Assembly (NCBI GenBank): GCA_001007975.1
Contig: CP011268.1
Coordinates: 434,001 to 498,000 of the forward strand
DNA: 64,000 bases
Direction: 5' to 3'
Origin: a candidate division SR1 bacterium Aalborg_AAW-1
GTDB taxonomy: Bacteria; Patescibacteriota; Gracilibacteria; Absconditabacterales; Absconditicoccaceae
Shown here: in pieces, positions 4,829-61,465 of the stretch
Layout: every line of letters starts with the position of its first letter
Numbering within the stretch: position 1 is the first letter of the stretch
Translations under genes and position numbers: made by a program
The notes under the pieces: generated by a model
What the model was told of the DNA's origin: nothing
Database searches by the model: none
Seen by the model: only the letters and a program-made list of their open reading frames with translations

Positions 4829-5806
4829 ATGAAGAAACAACAAATCTGACTTTTCAAAATTATTAAACATTCATTTTTCTGGATAGCGGTATCTGTTATG
4901 ATGATGATCGGAAGTATTGTGTTGTTTGTTGTAAACGCAAGACTCTCTATTGAATTTACTGGAGGTATTGATCTTACTATCAACGAACTCAACAATGAAG
5001 AAAACCTTGTATCTGCACTGAAAGATGGTCTCACGGCACAAGGATTTAATCAGCCACAAATCAATATTGAGAAAGAAGGAACAAATACGAGTCTTCTTGT
5101 TTCTCTTCCTTTTGAAAACGACGAACAAGTCAAAGAAGTAAGTAGTGGTGTAAATCAAATTCTTCTCAATCAATGATTTATCTCAAGTCCTGATGCTATT
5201 GTCGGTTTATCTCTCAACGGACCTAGTGTATCATCATACATGAAATCAGGAGCCATTAACGCTATCATAGTCGGACTCATTCTCATTTCAATCTACATTA
5301 TGTTCTCTTTTGCTAGTGTAAGAAAACATATATCCCCTCTTGTGTTAGGATGAGTTACTATCCTAACAATGTTGTTTGATACCAGTATTGCATTATGAGC
5401 GTATGGATTATGGATGGCATTTAACAGTACCGTTACCGTAGACACGATCTTCATTATCTCTATCCTTACCATTATGGGTTATAGTATAAATGATACTATT
5501 ATTATTCTTGATAGAATTAGAGAAAATATTGCAAGACAAAGTGATTCTCTTGACAAAGGAACAGTGTTATATGGACAACTCGTTGAAGATAGTATTTGGC
5601 AAACTATGAGAAGGTCATTAGGAACTGGTGTAACGACATTACTTGTAACTCTGACTATGTTTATCTTTGGTACTGATATGTTGCAAAAATTTGCATTTAC
5701 TATCGCTATAGGAATCATAGCTGGAACATATTCATCTCTCTTCTTCGCTTCTCCTATGACGTATATCTTCCTTAATAAATGGAAGAAAGAATTAAAAAAA
5801 CTATAG
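4829..5806 (+). CDS. secF: protein translocase subunit SecF
   Basis: 325 residues, ending TAG. SecF works with SecD in the Sec translocon to pull exported proteins across the membrane. It has an N-terminal membrane segment, a periplasmic P1-like domain beginning SIEFTGGIDL, then a group of C-terminal membrane segments with the SecF signature GYSINDTIIILDRIREN (about 210-225). No secD is next to it, although the two usually sit together. ATG at 4829 gives the basic MKKQQ start before the first membrane helix. Confidence 0.9.
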
Positions 5807-16768: not shown

Positions 16769-16842
16769 GCGAGCATGATGTAGTTGGTGTAGCATAGCAG
16801 ACTTCAGCTCTGCTCGTACGGGTTCGAGTCCCGTTGCTCGCT
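16769..16842 (+). tRNA. tRNA-Gly(UCA), reads UGA as glycine
   Basis: 74-nt cloverleaf. The acceptor pairs GCGAGCA with TGCTCGC and the discriminator is T, as in bacterial tRNA-Gly. The anticodon stem is GCAGA / TCTGC with loop CTTCAGC, so the anticodon is UCA. The T-arm is ACGGG / CCCGT with loop TTCGAGT. The anticodon reads UGA and keeps C35, an important glycine identity base. This is the tRNA needed for the code-25 reading seen across the window. Confidence 0.93.
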
Positions 16843-53871: not shown

Positions 53872-54879
<1,008 letters not shown>

Positions 54880-54970
54880 GGTGAAGGATGTGAAGCTTAA
54901 ATATTAAAAATTATATTTTTTATTATATACAAATTCTACTTCTACTACAATATATTTTCTTTATTAAGTT

Positions 54971-55537
54971 TTAATTTCAAGCACTACTTACTCATTTTTC
55001 AAATGCTTTGAGATGATTACGACTTCATTGAAGAAGTTTGTTGAGTACTGCTTGTATATCAGGATAGTTTATAAAGGAGGGTAGTATCTTTTCTATATCA
55101 GCTATATCTTTCTGTTCGATAGCTATTCCTACTTTTATTGCTTCTTGTGGACTTTGTTTACCTTGTGTGAGCAGGGTGTGGTAGAGTTCTGTAAGTTCTG
55201 GATCGCTAAACGCTCCAATACTGTCCTGAGTAGGATCTGTTATGCTATATTTTTGTAAAAGTTGGGTCATAAGTGATTTATGTTGTGCTTCTGATTTTGG
55301 TATGTTAATAAATTGTTTATTATTTCGCTTTTCTCCAAGTGTAGTATAGACATCATGTGCTAGTTTTTCTTCTTCAATAAGATAATTAAGTTGTGTGACT
55401 TGTTCTTCATTGAGTTTCGTAGTTGGCGATGATATATTGTTGTTTTCTATCTGTTCCATTCATGGTTGATATAGTGTACATCATGTCAATAAAATGACAC
55501 TTGCAATACTGAGTGATGTGAGAAGTAAATGTTTCAT
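54971..55537 (-). CDS. DUF2202 (ferritin-like) lipoprotein
   Basis: 188 residues. The N-terminal signal ends in a lipobox, ILLTGC, with its glycine written UGA. The mature part has the DUF2202 helices: LNEEQVTQLNYLIEEEKLAHDVY, then SEAQHKSLMTQLLQKY, and IEQKDIADIEK, with the Glu/His spacing of ferritin-like metal sites. The family function is unknown; the metal site is inferred. It has 167 bp upstream, so probably its own promoter. Confidence 0.75.
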
Positions 55538-55704
55538 GAGTATAAGTAATTATAAAGTAAAATTTATGATACCATCTTTGTTAATGAAATTTATATTGTC
55601 TCTAAATAATATAAAGAACATCTATGTTAAGATAATAACATACGAATATTATATATTTACCTTAAATTAAACTTATATCACTAATATATTCAAAATAGAG
55701 TTTT

Positions 55705-56085
55705 TTATTGTACAATTTGTACATTTTTGAGATCATTCATTCCTCCTCCATCGATAATATTTGTAAATCCTTGTGATTTGAGTTCAGTAAGTGCAAGTGC
55801 GCTACGACGACCAGAGCGACAGTAGACAATGAGCGGTTGGTCTTTTGGTAAATTTGAAGTCTGACCTGCTTGGATTGTTCAGAGTGGGAGATGTATCGCT
55901 CCTGAGACATGACCAGCTGCTCGTTCATCATTTTCACGGACATCAACATAGAGAGAGTCAGAATAATTGTTTTGAGATTTATTAGTCGATGTTGATGTTG
56001 GTCATGTGACGGTTGTGCTTGATCCACATCATCAAAGAATAAGGAGTAATGCAAAGAAGCTTGTTAGTATGAGTTTGTTATTCAT
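55705..56085 (-). CDS. rhodanese-domain lipoprotein
   Basis: 126 residues. The signal ends LLILGGCGSS, a lipobox in which both glycines are UGA. The rhodanese domain follows: YVDVRENDERAAGHVSGAIH, IVYCRSGRRSALA (active Cys89, loop CRSGRR) and a final GFTNIIDGGGMNDL. It would handle persulfide sulfur outside the membrane. It overlaps the preceding rhodanese-like gene by 8 bp. Confidence 0.88.
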
Positions 56086-56464
56086 GGATTGAGATGTTAG
56101 TTTTAAAAAATTCTGCATTCATTTGTTCTATATGATACATTCCTGCACCGCTTGATATGTCTACAAAACGATATTGTGGTAAGAGTGGTGTAAGTTTAGA
56201 CTTTGTATATCCTGAAATTGAGCAACCACTATCACAATAGAGTGCAAAATATGTCCCTTCAGGATGTTGTTGTTGAAAAAAAAGATCGTCAGAAGATAGT
56301 ATTGATCACTCGACAGGATGTCAAACCATGTCTACAAGAACAACATTAATGTTATTTTTAGCTAATACTTCTTTGTAAGCGAAATATTGTATCCATGACC
56401 GAACATCTTTTTTTTCTATGTCTTGTAAGGTGTCTTTATAAGGATTGTAATTATCAGTAGACAT
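56078..56464 (-). CDS. divergent rhodanese-like protein
   Basis: 128 residues. A rhodanese-like arrangement is visible: INVVLVDMVGHPVEGSIL, then FALYCDSGCSISGYTKSKL with a Cys in the active-loop position (and a second Cys four residues on), and a final FVDISSGAGMYHIEQ. No signal peptide is seen. The loop CDSGCS is unusual for rhodaneses. It is the seventh gene of the run that starts with trx. Confidence 0.6.
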
Positions 56465-56486
56465 GATATAATTGTCTTATTATAAA

Positions 56487-57293
56487 CTAAAGTAGTAGTT
56501 CTTTGATGATAATAAATCATCACATGATAAGTATAAAATATCCAAACAATACTTTAATTTTTTTGTCATCGATAAAACGTTGGATATAGTTTCATAGTAA
56601 CATTCATAGAATTGAAATGATAGAAATAATGGAAAAGAATCTCCAATCAATAGTGAGATGGCTTATGTCACCTATAAATCATAACAATGATTTGATACTA
56701 ATCACAAGCAGAGATGTTCATATTGCTGTTTTGATAGGCATTTTCGTGAAAAATACCAATGCTGGTATGATGAGAAATCATCATCATGCTCATACAAAAC
56801 CTGTAATCCCTCAAACAATAAGCCCTTCTCATATAATAAGAAGATAGCGAAGATACTTGTTATTTAGATAAGAATGTGATGGTGTTGTTTCTTTTTCTTG
56901 TTGTTGAGGTTTAATCATAGAAAATGCTGCTAAGAGCATAATAATTGAAAATACTATCATAATAATAGCTCATTTACTTATATTATAATTTATGATGGAA
57001 ATTGTTTCTGGTAGTAATGGTATCATATATGTACGTACCAATGTTACTCCAATAAGAGAAGGAATTCCAAAAATGACACCTGTTTTGATATCGATTTGTC
57101 AGGACCTATACTTGGGTATTACAGCTAATAAACTTGTCAGTCCTACTAATCATAATGAGTACGATGTTGCTAAAACTGGATCAATATTGAAGATATAGAC
57201 CAAAAGAGGTACCGCTAGTATACTACCACCTCATCATGTGAGACCAAGCATAATTCAGATAATACTTGTTAACAGATATCAGATATATTCCAT
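56487..57293 (-). CDS. TauE/SafE-family membrane exporter
   Basis: 268 residues, about eight membrane helices. The N-terminal signature GGVMLGLTGGGGSILAVPLLVY and the repeat in the second half (GAGGGFLIIPALVFF) are TauE/SafE patterns. Most of their glycines are UGA, including UGA GCA UGA UGA UGA in a row. These permeases export sulfite or sulfur-containing organics; TauE is part of the staphylococcal cst operon. Here it follows the persulfide-dioxygenase fusion, which fits a sulfite-export role. Confidence 0.85.
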
Positions 57294-57323
57294 AAATATG
57301 GTGTGAAAGAAGATAAAAAGTTA

Positions 57324-59135
57324 TTATCCTGGCATGACATGATTTGCTTGATATCCGTGGGCACGAAGTATTGTACTTGCAACACACGATTTATAGCTTC
57401 CTCAACAATATGGAATATAGGTAGTAGTTTTGTCTAGTTTTTCTAATTGAGATTGGAGTTCTTCTAATGGAATATTGATAGCATCAGAGAATAAGGGATT
57501 ATCAGCAAATGTGCTTGGCGATCTAAGATCAATAACAGTGTACTTCTTGATCTCTTTTTCAGATTTTTGTTCATGAATATACAGTCCCGTGATTAACGAT
57601 TCATATCCAATACTCATAATACTAGCAACAATCTTTTCATACTCTTTTTGATGTTCTACTATGACGATAATCTTGTCTGTTGGTAGTATAACAGATCACA
57701 ATACTCCTACAAAATTTTCATTATATGGAATATTAATTGCTCCTTTATAGAGTGGATATAAGACAAATTTATCATAAGATCTGGTATCGATTATTACTCC
57801 ATCAAATTCGTTTGGTAAAGTTCCTATCATCGGTATAGTGTCTTTAGCTTCTTGGTAAGAACTATTGCCATGTTTATTTAATAAGACGCTATTAGTAAAA
57901 TAAGGAGGAATTGATGGCTGGTCGGAAGTAAGTTCTTCTATAAATTCTTCTTTACTCATTTCTTGAAGCATAGGATTGTATTTGAGTTGATTTCATAAGC
58001 TATCCATGTTTTTTTTACTTAATCACTTACCACATGAAGTTCCTGCGCCGTGTGCTGGTAAGATCATAAGATTTTTGTCGAGTATTGGCAATATTTCTCT
58101 TGTGCTATCGTACATCATACCTGCCAATTCTGCTTGTTTCGCTTTAATATTTCCTACTTTTTCTCTGAGATCTGCTCTTCCTACATCCCCGATAAATACC
58201 CAATCTCCTGTAAAAAATGCAATTTCTTTATCATGATCGTCTTTGATAAGATAACTGATGCTGTCAGGAGAATGTCCTGGTGTGAAGTAAGATACTATTG
58301 TTGCTGTACCAACTTTTATAGTTTCTCATCACTGAAGAGATGTATGAGCATATTCTGCTCCAACTTTATCTCCTACATAAATAGTAGCTGCTGTCTCATT
58401 GTGTATTTGAAGATGTCCACTTGCAAAATCAGCATGAGGATGAGTATTGAGTACTGCAACAATTTTTGCATTATGGTGTTGAGCGAGATCATAATATTGT
58501 TGAGGATTCCTTGTAGGATCGACGACAACAGCTTCTCCATTGCTAATGGCCATATATGAATAATGTGCTAAATCCTTATCAGCAAATTGTTGTATAACAA
58601 GATTGTTTCCTGACACAGATGTTGTTTTTGTATTGGTTTCGATTTTGTTTCGTGGCATCATAGCAAGAATTTTTCCCATACCACATCGACCAGTAGCTCC
58701 AGCAAACACCAGTCCAGCTCCTACGAAGGAACTCAGTCAGATCCATCGATTGTTTGCTAAAATGCTGAGTCAAATTCACAATAACACTAAAGATCAAGCA
58801 GTAATTTGTATCTGTTGCATAAGAGGTAATGGTCCTTTTTCAACTTCTCTTGGACATCATTGACAAGCTGATAATCATCCTGCAAGATTGGTAATATGAG
58901 TATATCATAATTTTGCAGCTTTTTTGATGAATTGTGACGAGCTATTCCCAGTATTACAATAAGCGATAATATGATCGTATTGTGATAATTCTTTTTTATG
59001 GTCTTCAAAATAATCTAATGGCATGTTAATAGCTCATTGAATATGATCAAGGTGAAATTCTTCAGGAGTTCTCACATCTATTATAGTAAGGTTTTTGTCA
59101 TTAAAGTTTATATCATGTGGTTTAATGGATTTCAT
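57324..59135 (-). CDS. five-part sulfur fusion: rhodanese, membrane hairpin, persulfide dioxygenase-type MBL, pseudo-rhodanese, rhodanese
   Basis: 603 residues. Residues 1-90 are a rhodanese with Cys60 (AYCNTGNSS). About 91-165 is a DUF2892/YgaP-like hairpin starting CQGCPREVEKGPLPL, with two membrane segments. About 175-370 is a metallo-beta-lactamase domain with H232, H234 and D236 in NTHPHADFASGH, H288 in TPGHSPDS, D311 in FTGDWVF and H362 in LPAHGAGT. The HPHADF form matches CstB-type persulfide dioxygenases. About 400-500 is a rhodanese fold without Cys. About 510-603 is a rhodanese with Cys577 (YIPYCGGSYKS). This could take persulfide sulfur to sulfite and thiosulfate. The joining of the YgaP-like and CstB-like parts is unusual. 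Confidence 0.85.
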
Positions 59136-59169
59136 ATGTTTATATAACTAAAATTTAAAAATTATATTC

Positions 59170-59478
59170 TTACTGTATGATAGGTATATTTTCTATTCCA
59201 TAAATTATACCTCATGCATTATAAACATTATATCATTGTGCTTTCAGGACTTGCATGGCCACGCTAGAACGAGCTCCACTACGACAATACACACCTATAC
59301 GTTTATCTTGAGGAAGGTTGTGTTTTCACTGCTGAATATCTCATAACGGTATATTGATAGATCACTGAAGATGTCATTGAGATCGTTCTGATGGTTCACG
59401 TACATCGACATAGAGCTCAGTTTTTTCTGACGTTCAAGATGTTGGTTGTGGATTATTGAAAAACGACAATATCGACAT
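59170..59478 (-). CDS. single-domain rhodanese
   Basis: 102 residues. YVDVREPSERSQGHLQGSINIPL, the active loop VYCRSGARSSVA with Cys71, and the terminal GYNVYNAGGI form a complete rhodanese. There is no signal peptide, so it is cytoplasmic. Many glycines are UGA. It lies 34 bp upstream of the fusion gene and 32 bp after the regulator, so it belongs to the same transcript. Confidence 0.9.
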
Positions 59479-59510
59479 TGTGTTATTGGTAGTAAAGTAA
59501 AATGATTGTC

Positions 59511-59816
59511 TTATTTTTTATTACACTCTATCATGATGATAGATCAGCTTACAAGAGATTGCGTAACTTTTTGGCGAGCTGAAGCATAGATTCAAGCATA
59601 GACAGTTTTTGACACTTGCATACAATCAGCTCATTGTTGCATTGTTTTGTTGTCGATGTCTTTATCGATAAGAGTTTGCAGTTCCTCTTTACTGAGTAGT
59701 ATTTGCGGTCTTTGTTCTAGTTCTTCTTGGGATAAACTTGCAGGTCCTCGACAATTACATACGAGTGTATCAGTATTGAAACTTGTACATCTTGCTATTT
59801 TTTTGCGTCATTTCAT
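59511..59816 (-). CDS. DUF134 (UPF0251)-family DNA-binding regulator
   Basis: 101 residues. The N-terminal part has a Cys cluster (RCTSFNTDTLVCNCRGPA) and the C-terminal half a helix-turn-helix: LSKEELQTLIDKDIDNKTMQQGADCMQVSKTVYAGIYASARQKV. This is the DUF134 pattern, usually LsxdElEAlrLxDxexlxqeeaAxxMxvSrxTfxRil. The Cys may sense metal or sulfane sulfur. As the only likely DNA-binding protein in the run, it is the best candidate for its regulator. Three UGA glycines. Confidence 0.7.
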
Positions 59817-59871
59817 GATAGATCACATTGTTTTGAATAAAAATGTAGAAATTTTAACGGTATGCTGATTA

Positions 59872-61017
59872 TTATTCACATACAATAGAACTTTTGTTGT
59901 TAATGCAACCTGTCATTTTTTTGCTGATAATTATAAACATGACAATAGCAAGTACAGTCGATAATATAACAATAGCATAGAGTATAGGATTTTTAAAGAA
60001 AATATTGTAAGCAAATGATCACATCACTGCATACGCTACTAATGGACAGATTAGTCACCACATTGTCAGGTAAAATTCTTTTTTCCAAAACTCTGCTGTT
60101 AAATAATCTTTGAGTATAGTAAATCAGAATAACATATATCGAGTTTGAAACGCAAAAGCACCCATTATAACGAAAAATGTTAATGATTCTACGTGTTGAC
60201 CAGTTTGATTGCCGTAATAATGAAGTAATCTAAAAGTACTAATTCCAAATAATGTCATAGCGGGGATAACACTTAACACTCAAGGCATAGCATGTTTATT
60301 GGGTAATCCATTTTTGTCTGAGAAATGTTTTTGAAATAGTGTGATAATTTTTGTAATAAAAAGAAATATTCCATACATTAAAGAAGTGAGAGAAAAGAAT
60401 GCTGCGGTATGAGCTATCATGGTGTCTTTTGCGAGAGCTGCGATACCAGTCCCTACTACTGTTACCATACCTATAGTAAAAGGTATAAGTAATCGACTAA
60501 ATGTTATTTTCTCCATATCAAAACTTGTAGAAAAAGCTTTCTTAACGAGTACTAGTGTATATTTCATGGTAATAATCCATAATATTCCCCATGCAATCAG
60601 CGCTGGAAGCATAAGAGATTGTAGATTTTCTGATAATACTGGTATGAAAAATCTAATTACTCCAATAAATAAATTAAAAGTCATAGCGGTTGCTAGTATT
60701 GGTGCAGTAAGACCAGCATTACGTAGAGGATCGTTTTTGTATTCTTGTGCTTGCGGTGTTTTGATCCATCTTATATATTGTATGAAGAATTGTATCATTA
60801 AAACAATATGAGTTACTCAAAATACAATCATAATAGCCATCAGAATGTAGTAAAACCATCACATAGAGCTATCTAGAAGAGGCAGAATATGTTTGAGTGC
60901 AATGAGTCCTTTCGGATGATCAACACTATAGTTCATCAATGCAAAAGGTATCACAGCAATTCACCCTGCACCTAATGCCATTAAAAACACTAATGGACTA
61001 AATGATAATTTTTTCAT
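59872..61017 (-). CDS. TDT/SLAC1-like membrane protein
   Basis: 381 residues, about ten membrane helices. It starts MKKLSFSPLVFLMALGAGGIAV. The overall size and helix number fit the TDT (TehA/SLAC1) anion channel-transporter group, some members of which export sulfite. The match is by layout and not by a clear motif. It lies between trx and the DUF134 regulator in the same run. A short Cys-containing tail (TGCINNKSSIVCE) is exposed. Confidence 0.4.
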
Positions 61018-61045
61018 TGTAACTTTGTAATAATTAAAATAAAAA

Positions 61046-61378
61046 CTATGCAGCTTGTTGAAGATCACTATTTGCAAGTTGATTTTGTATTCCTTGCCAA
61101 AGTCCTTGAAGATCAGCTCCTACGATAGTTTGTACTTCTTTACCGTTGTTAAAAATCTTCAATGTTGGCATAGCAGTGATATCTTGTTGTGCTGCGAGCA
61201 TTCTTTCTTGATCGACATCAACTTTATAAAATGATACAGTATCACCGAGTTGTGTATCCATTTGTTCAAGATAAGGAGCAATCATCTGACATGGTCCACA
61301 TCGTGTGGCAAAAAAATCAACAACAGATATTCCTGATGCAATAGAGCTACTAAATTCTGCTTGAGTGAGGTGTTTCAT
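61046..61378 (-). CDS. thioredoxin with unusual TRCGPC site
   Basis: 110 residues from ATG at 61378 (MKHLTQAEF); a longer frame upstream reaches into the operator region and is not preferred. The fold is clear: VVDFFATRCGPCQMIAPYLEQ, FYKVDVDQE, ITAMPTLKIFNNGKEV with the cis-proline, and VGADLQG. The active site is C27-G-P-C30. Trp before the first Cys is replaced by Arg26, which should change redox behaviour or partner choice. No UGA glycine is used. First gene of the sulfur run. Confidence 0.9.
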   Translation of the reverse strand: MKHLTQAEFSSSIASGISVVDFFATRCGPCQMIAPYLEQMDTQLGDTVSFYKVDVDQERMLAAQQDITAMPTLKIFNNGKEVQTIVGADLQGLWQGIQNQLANSDLQQAA

Positions 61379-61403: not shown

Positions 61404-61415
61404 CGAACATGTTCG
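61404..61415. promoter_or_regulatory. palindromic operator-like site 1
   Basis: Perfect 12-bp palindrome CGAACATGTTCG, 26 bp upstream of the trx start. A near copy lies 50 bp away. Confidence 0.5.
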
Positions 61416-61453
61416 GAATATAATAATTTTTTCATCAATTGCAAGAGAATTTG

Positions 61454-61465
61454 CGAATATGTTCG
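61454..61465. promoter_or_regulatory. palindromic operator-like site 2
   Basis: CGAATATGTTCG, one base different from site 1. Both copies are followed by GAAnAT. Confidence 0.5.

Follow-up and report, generated by a model that had tools for sequence, protein, structure and literature searches.

What is the function of a tight row of sulfur and thiol genes in a bacterium of the candidate phyla radiation (CPR), and what controls it? The question is raised by a cluster of eight minus-strand genes, running from 61378 to 55705 in the window (i.e. the whole stretch of 64,000 nucleotides that was analysed, positions 434,001 to 498,000 of contig CP011268.1 of the candidate division SR1 bacterium Aalborg_AAW-1). 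The window genome, coded G000, comprises 1,044,756 bases in one contig; relatives were given G numbers and their loci L numbers. From the observed gene content, the conservation of domains and residues and a conserved operator tied to one DUF134 subfamily, the cluster is probably a persulfide-detoxification operon, cst-like in function and autoregulated by the DUF134 protein of its third gene, for which we infer DNA binding and sulfur sensing. Persulfide handling by the cluster, as predicted from its genes, is well supported by homology.

The gene cluster and its fusion enzyme

The existence of the eight-gene cluster was confirmed. Genes were called with code 25, in which TGA is read as glycine; under table 11 most of the cluster frames are interrupted at TGA, the thioredoxin (Trx) frame being intact. 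Intergenic gaps measure, in order, 28, 55, 32, 34, 30 and 22 bp and the last junction is an 8-nt ATG/stop overlap, bearing out the compact arrangement given in a preliminary description of this DNA. The CPR lineage assumed there is supported by the reading of UGA as glycine, seen in the code 25 frames and in a tRNA with anticodon TCA (16769-16842; labelled SeC by ARAGORN), which is presumably the tRNA-Gly(UCA) of this code. The gene set was also sought in relatives, as had been proposed. The fifth gene, encoding a fusion enzyme, recurs with DUF134 in two more genera, in one of them also with Trx and each time as an orthologue, and the cluster is therefore more than a chance arrangement.

The fusion (57324..59135) was assigned five domains from Pfam, Protein Data Bank (PDB) matches and full-length relatives, i.e. 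a rhodanese, a YgaP-like transmembrane segment, a persulfide dioxygenase (PDO), a pseudo-rhodanese (RHD) and a second rhodanese (Rhod). Pfam Rhodanese was found in two stretches, and the YgaP-like transmembrane family scored 24.8, just below its cut-off of 25.3, and passed in two fusion relatives (29.6 and 28.5). The best PDB matches were 3tp9 and 3r2u, two PDO-rhodanese proteins that align with the dioxygenase and the pseudo-rhodanese of the fusion; the alignment includes the middle domain and ends at residues 515-521. A 2-His-1-carboxylate iron site of the metallo-beta-lactamase fold is present: H232, H288 and D311, which we take to be the iron ligands, align with THIHADF, TPGHTP and FSGD of the two solved proteins. 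The usual motif of this fold is HxHxDH, beside which the THPHADF of the fusion looks odd; both solved relatives likewise carry F at this place. The pseudo-rhodanese is followed by a C-terminal rhodanese with an active cysteine, C577, in a YCGG loop. This residue, C60 of the N-terminal rhodanese, C368 and the three presumed ligands are invariant across the three full fusions in the family. Judged by these residues, the protein is predicted to be a CstB with a YgaP front end that retains its iron ligands and both rhodanese cysteines.

Full fusions were found in three of 49 family genomes, namely G000, G357 (54%) and G352 (41%). No further genome matched all five domains in a phylum sample of 192 genomes or a class sample of 145, the G081 match covering PDO-RHD-Rhod only (26%). 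Two other genomes of the class, G027 and G391, encode Rhod-YgaP and PDO in separate neighbouring genes, an adjacency that supports a functional link between these parts. The nearest named PDO-RHD-Rhod proteins, retrieved using six narrow peptide patterns, were from Bacteroidota in 27 of 27 loci (39-42% best-segment identity), and a TauE gene lies near the PDO gene in seven of these. In a tree of 31 rows (short row L039 dropped, long-branch rows G081 and the second L050 copy kept), the three fusions of the family group together (100/100), and the place of this clade among the Bacteroidota is an open fork. Given this fork and the pattern-limited retrieval, transfer from Bacteroidota was rejected as a statement of fact.

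Family matches were obtained for most of the other products, with Pfam supporting Trx, SLAC1/TDT, DUF134, Rhodanese (in three proteins), Lactamase_B, TauE, DUF2202 and the reductase. The first gene (61046..61378) encodes a thioredoxin with a CGPC motif (Pfam Thioredoxin, 6.7e-26) and the second (59872..61017) a SLAC1/TDT-like membrane protein (SLAC1, 35.1 bits); the 'TDT channel' of the preliminary description is a member of the TsoY family (NF047643, 273 bits; curated cut-off 250). DUF134 (59511..59816) is followed by a single-domain rhodanese with a CRSGARS loop (59170..59478; 3.6e-13) and, beyond the fusion, by a TauE/SafE exporter (56487..57293; 6.5e-42). The last gene (55705..56085, this start being preferred over 56118) encodes a rhodanese (5.8e-13) with a CRSGRRS loop and a lipoprotein-type signal, its LGGC lipobox identified by eye. 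One earlier identification was not confirmed: the small protein of 56078..56464 had been called rhodanese-like, an identity that its CDSGCS loop alone hints at, with no Pfam or NCBIfam family match and an uninformative single-sequence model (predicted local distance difference test, pLDDT, 33).

The two genes said to follow the cluster are present on the same strand. A DUF2202 lipoprotein-like gene (54971..55537; 4e-32) starts 167 bp past it and a thioredoxin reductase gene, trxB (53872..54879; TIGR01292, 342.4 bits, just under the cut-off of 343.45), another 91 bp on. Because of these gaps, their co-transcription is less certain and each may be a separate unit. A malic enzyme gene, identified by eye, comes next.

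Operator-like palindromes and the CxCxGP subfamily of DUF134

The preliminary description had also remarked on a regulator different from that of the cst operon; this is the DUF134 (UPF0251) helix-turn-helix protein, for which a candidate operator was found. The 12-mer CGAACATRTTCG occurs at two places in the 1.04-Mb genome, both flanking the promoter upstream of Trx on the minus strand. Palindrome 1 (CGAACATATTCG, 61454..61465) lies upstream of the -35-like hexamer and palindrome 2 (CGAACATGTTCG, 61404..61415), 50 bp away, directly downstream of the -10-like hexamer of a promoter-like TTGCAA-16-TATATT sequence (61417..61444). Promoter-like sites overall were near chance in number (56 versus a shuffle mean of 48.0, standard deviation 6.8), as was the outcome of a terminator scan. 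A LexA-type SOS box was rejected, the spacing being GAAC-N2-GTTC instead of N4 and the 12-mer being present at a single promoter; the SOS consensus consists of GAAC-N4-GTTC boxes upstream of several genes.

The window DUF134 protein scores above the Pfam gathering cut-off (29.4 bits against 27) and is proposed to be a repressor. A single-sequence search with it matched 18 of the 49 family genomes. A gap in the E-values sets the window protein and seven others apart from the rest (the seven at 33-52% identity; E 5.8e-32 in G236 to 2.8e-13 in G295; next match, 1.1e-9), and these eight share a CxCxGP motif, with C20, C22, G24 and P25 invariant in the alignment. A profile built from the eight was run on 353 class genomes and matched 23 at E <= 1e-12, the best non-member scoring 2.7e-19; the members match their own profile by construction (1.8e-49 to 6.4e-40). 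CxCxGP was present in none of the six frames around the 18 other DUF134 loci listed. The predicted model of the window protein contains a helix-turn-helix (pLDDT 78.6), and a PDB sequence search gave no lead. In the open-licence literature, as far as its accessible text extends, no functional study of DUF134/UPF0251 was found, and the UPF0251 passage in PMC5886521 is an entry in a mutation table.

In seven of the eight CxCxGP genomes, operators precede either DUF134 itself or the gene that opens its operon. They are paired in G000, G357, G352, G317 (second site with one mismatch) and G248, with a spacing of 49-56 bp, and single in G236 and G350. Palindrome 1 has a counterpart with a GAAYATRTTC core at a like position in G357, G352, G317 and G248; palindrome 2 has one in seven of the eight, counting the lone sites in G236 and G350, which were assigned to it by position. 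TTGCA(A/T) stands between the palindromes in all five genomes with a pair. A double-operator pattern, GAACATATTCN{30,55}GAAYATGTTC, matched three of the 49 family genomes, exactly those with a full fusion (G000, G357 and G352), and none of the 49 when reversed. The contig orders are operator pair, fusion, Trx and DUF134 in G357 and operator pair, DUF134, fusion and cupredoxin lipoprotein in G352; in G350, the genes directly after DUF134 encode, in this order, DUF4395, a rhodanese and a ferric-reductase-like protein.

In 167.9 kb of sequence (i.e. the window and nine loci picked for DUF134 or fusion genes), 13 GAAYATRTTC palindromes were counted, 11 of them in promoters of CxCxGP DUF134 units. 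A palindrome at 5724 of the window lies inside a secF-like open reading frame (ORF) and was taken as chance. The flanks of the eight CxCxGP DUF134 genes (26.0 kb) contained seven palindromes and those of the 18 other DUF134 matches (54.7 kb, two flanks overlapping) none; in G000 and G357, where DUF134 comes third, the operators are too distant to fall within these short flanks.

Sites elsewhere were examined using a half-promoter pattern, CTTGCAN{18,32}GAAYATRTTC, designed on sites already seen. It gave 13 matches in 10 of the 49 genomes, and a reversed control gave one (G344). Five of the 13 were known. Three were new and came from CxCxGP genomes, G236 with two and G248 with one; the other five, all inside ORFs, were in genomes without the CxCxGP subfamily. 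The three new sites are intergenic, given the ATG starts chosen for DUF4395 (L142:4688) and glutamate dehydrogenase (L143:3744). One G236 site lies upstream of DUF4395 (L142:4137-4760), away from DUF134; this is the gene that directly follows DUF134 in G350. The extra sites of G236 suggest a small regulon. The new operator- and promoter-like site in G248 stands at a contig end (L144:3835-3879) after a TraX-like gene (by eye), and the G352 locus has a similar gene upstream (L074:4721-5482).

That some other regulator binds the palindromes, with DUF134 a bystander or an activator, is distinctly improbable. In favour of this reading, the sigma-region-4-like helix-turn-helix could serve an activator, and one CsoR-family gene elsewhere in the window genome is a candidate binder. 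However, the operator follows the DUF134 subfamily across seven genomes and six genera, and the position of palindrome 2 just past the -10-like hexamer suits a repressor. The CsoR-family gene (L169:501-2639, i.e. G000:C1:656000-658138) resembles a copper sensor (DHLGC motif), lies near a heavy-metal-binding-domain/cupredoxin gene (by eye) and is likely to belong to a separate copper-response unit. The operator is also present in G352, G317 and G350 (65, 96 and 83% complete), where no CsoR-family match was found. CsoR/CstR acting in trans on the palindromes was accordingly rejected. Absence of CsoR was itself rejected as proof of replacement, 23 of the 49 family genomes carrying such a gene.

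Regulators beside TsoY

Tso denotes a three selenoprotein operon in which, according to the available text of PMC13188914, TsoY has a UxxV motif. At the site matched to it by eye, the window protein has C324-P-L-V with a TGT codon, so that cysteine stands in place of selenocysteine; in this genome UGA is glycine. The window TsoY is, on this match, a predicted Cys form of the selenoprotein family. No other Tso family was among the NCBIfam matches listed for the ten proteins encoded by the cluster and the two genes beyond it.

The TsoY family was matched in 18 of the 353 class genomes, 16 above the cut-off, and a plasmid search gave one weak match. Fifteen loci, the window included, had readable flanks (1.5 kb), and all 15 have CP at the matching place. 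A CsoR/CstR-like gene adjoins TsoY in eight (one by Pfam, the rest by alignment), DUF134 in three (G000, G363 and G413) and Rhod-YgaP with PDO in one (G391); three have none of these (G302, G496 and G228). DUF134 thus alternates with a CstR-like regulator beside TsoY. The copper ligands of CsoR include a His at position -4 relative to the second Cys, and this His is absent from seven of the eight TsoY-adjacent CsoR-like proteins. Two of the 15 loci, G000 and G391, link TsoY directly with sulfur genes. At the latter (L150:1486-3869), in another family with TGA as glycine, TsoY, Rhod/YgaP and a persulfide dioxygenase stand in a row without DUF134. The DUF134 gene of G413, which is followed by TsoY and is not of the CxCxGP type, has a long perfect palindrome (AATACATTATGAAATATATTTCATAATGTATT) in front of it (L152, upstream of 2975); DUF134 proteins outside the subfamily may use operators of this type. 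Joint arrival of TsoY and PDO from Bacteroidota was rejected, no TsoY match being found in 15 of 15 genomes (16 of the 27 loci).

Proposed working of the operon and its relation to known systems

For DNA binding, repression, signal, substrate and export directions, we infer the following. Two rhodaneses, the outer lipoprotein and the small one, would pick up sulfane sulfur, which the membrane-anchored fusion may accept as cysteine persulfide (at C60 or C577). The persulfide would be oxidised with O2 at the iron held by H232, H288 and D311 to give sulfite, and the C-terminal rhodanese may combine sulfite with persulfide into thiosulfate, the cst end product. TauE, and probably TsoY, would export sulfite or thiosulfate, and Trx, with TrxB, would reduce persulfides to sulfide and reset cysteines. 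Transcription would start between or just past two GAACATATTC-type palindromes bound by DUF134, which would repress its own promoter; modification of the CxC cysteines would lift the repression, with persulfide the likeliest signal. The repressor role is suggested by the place of palindrome 2 and by the spacing of the pairs, and the ligand by the CxC motif and gene content. A broader proposal is put forward tentatively, with confidence a little short of even: CxCxGP DUF134 proteins may be a new class of persulfide-sensing repressors, unrelated to CstR/CsoR, BigR/SqrR and FisR, with paired GAACATATTC operators flanking promoters of persulfide and thiol genes, and DUF134 may have replaced a CstR-like repressor beside TsoY in CPR bacteria that read UGA as glycine.

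Several observations weigh against the proposed persulfide-clearing operon and its DUF134 switch. PDO chemistry would depend on exposure of the organism to O2. No SQR or CstA is present in the gene content of 53872-61378, to which the search was confined. Fold matches of the DUF134 model are weak (E 0.2 and above), being mostly sigma-factor region 4 from rank 2 (E 0.26 and up), with none of 363 at E <= 0.001, and the C-terminal Cys of DUF134 is absent in G357. A CsoR-family gene exists elsewhere in the window genome, and the DUF134 proteins beside TsoY in G363 and G413 lack the CxCxGP motif. The G236 DUF134 gene has no evident partner, and an operator-like site of this genome lies upstream of glutamate dehydrogenase (L143:3654-5075), away from DUF134. 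The CxCxGP DUF134 gene of G295 has no operator upstream and stands directly upstream of glutamate dehydrogenase (L106:5933-7503), and in G248 only Trx follows DUF134. The glutamate dehydrogenase links in G236 and G295 caution that DUF134 may sense a broader signal than persulfide. The same links, Trx alone in G248 and the ferric-reductase-like protein of G350 speak for an explanation that we regard as unlikely, namely that DUF134 is a general thiol-redox (or metal) switch, with Trx, TrxB, rhodanese, DUF4395 and glutamate dehydrogenase keeping redox balance and PDO one tool of several. TrxB and malic enzyme after the window operon would fit such a switch; however, five of the eight CxCxGP units (G000, G357, G352, G317 and G350) include a rhodanese or a PDO fusion, and DUF134 occupies the position of the CstR-like repressor at related TsoY loci.

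The external rhodanese lipoprotein would also fit sulfur feeding, in which sulfane sulfur of a host serves biosynthesis (thiolation, Fe-S) and not detoxification. In line with this, the available passages describe the CPR epibiont Vampirococcus as living on sulfur-granule-bearing hosts (PMC8080830) and ultra-small cells on sulfur-granule-bearing filaments (PMC10811913). A dioxygenase and exporters remove sulfur, however, and no TusA, IscS, MoeB or Thi gene was found among the ten cluster proteins scanned. Nothing in the analysis favoured feeding over detoxification, and we consider it very improbable.

Under the favoured reading of persulfide detoxification, the parallel with the cst operon drawn in the preliminary description holds for the core enzyme (3tp9 and 3r2u), TauE and the rhodaneses. 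The Staphylococcus aureus operon (CstR, TauE, CstA, CstB and SQR), as described in the part of PMC5480029 that was available, shares with the window a CstB-type PDO-RHD-Rhod enzyme, TauE, sulfurtransferases and a local small regulator. In contrast, the window cluster has DUF134 in place of CstR, with no CsoR-family (PF02583) match among the ten proteins; its fusion adds an N-terminal rhodanese and a YgaP-like membrane segment to PDO; and Trx, TsoY and the outer rhodanese lipoprotein are additions. The yrkD-pdo cluster of Bacillus licheniformis likewise combines PDO, rhodanese, TauE and a thioredoxin-like gene with a sulfane-sulfur repressor, but of a different kind, the CstR-like YrkD, and has NreBC, SQR, TusA and DsrE (PMC9918477, available text). 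Persulfide dioxygenase in CPR bacteria is already published (PMC10811913): in the passages available, PDO stands beside rhodanese, Gracilibacteria included, as in the window, but as two adjacent genes modelled on 5VE3, whereas in the window one CstB-type fusion unites five domains and is accompanied by a regulator and an operator.

The operon itself is a variant of a known system, and the pairing of DUF134 with an operator is the part that would be new. The fusion provides an example of a CstB-type enzyme that carries a YgaP membrane module. DUF134 (UPF0251) has a family name but no known function, and one of its subfamilies would gain an operator, a target set and a testable class of ligand. 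CPR epibionts are usually held to have little regulation; with this operon they would gain a dedicated sulfur-stress switch.

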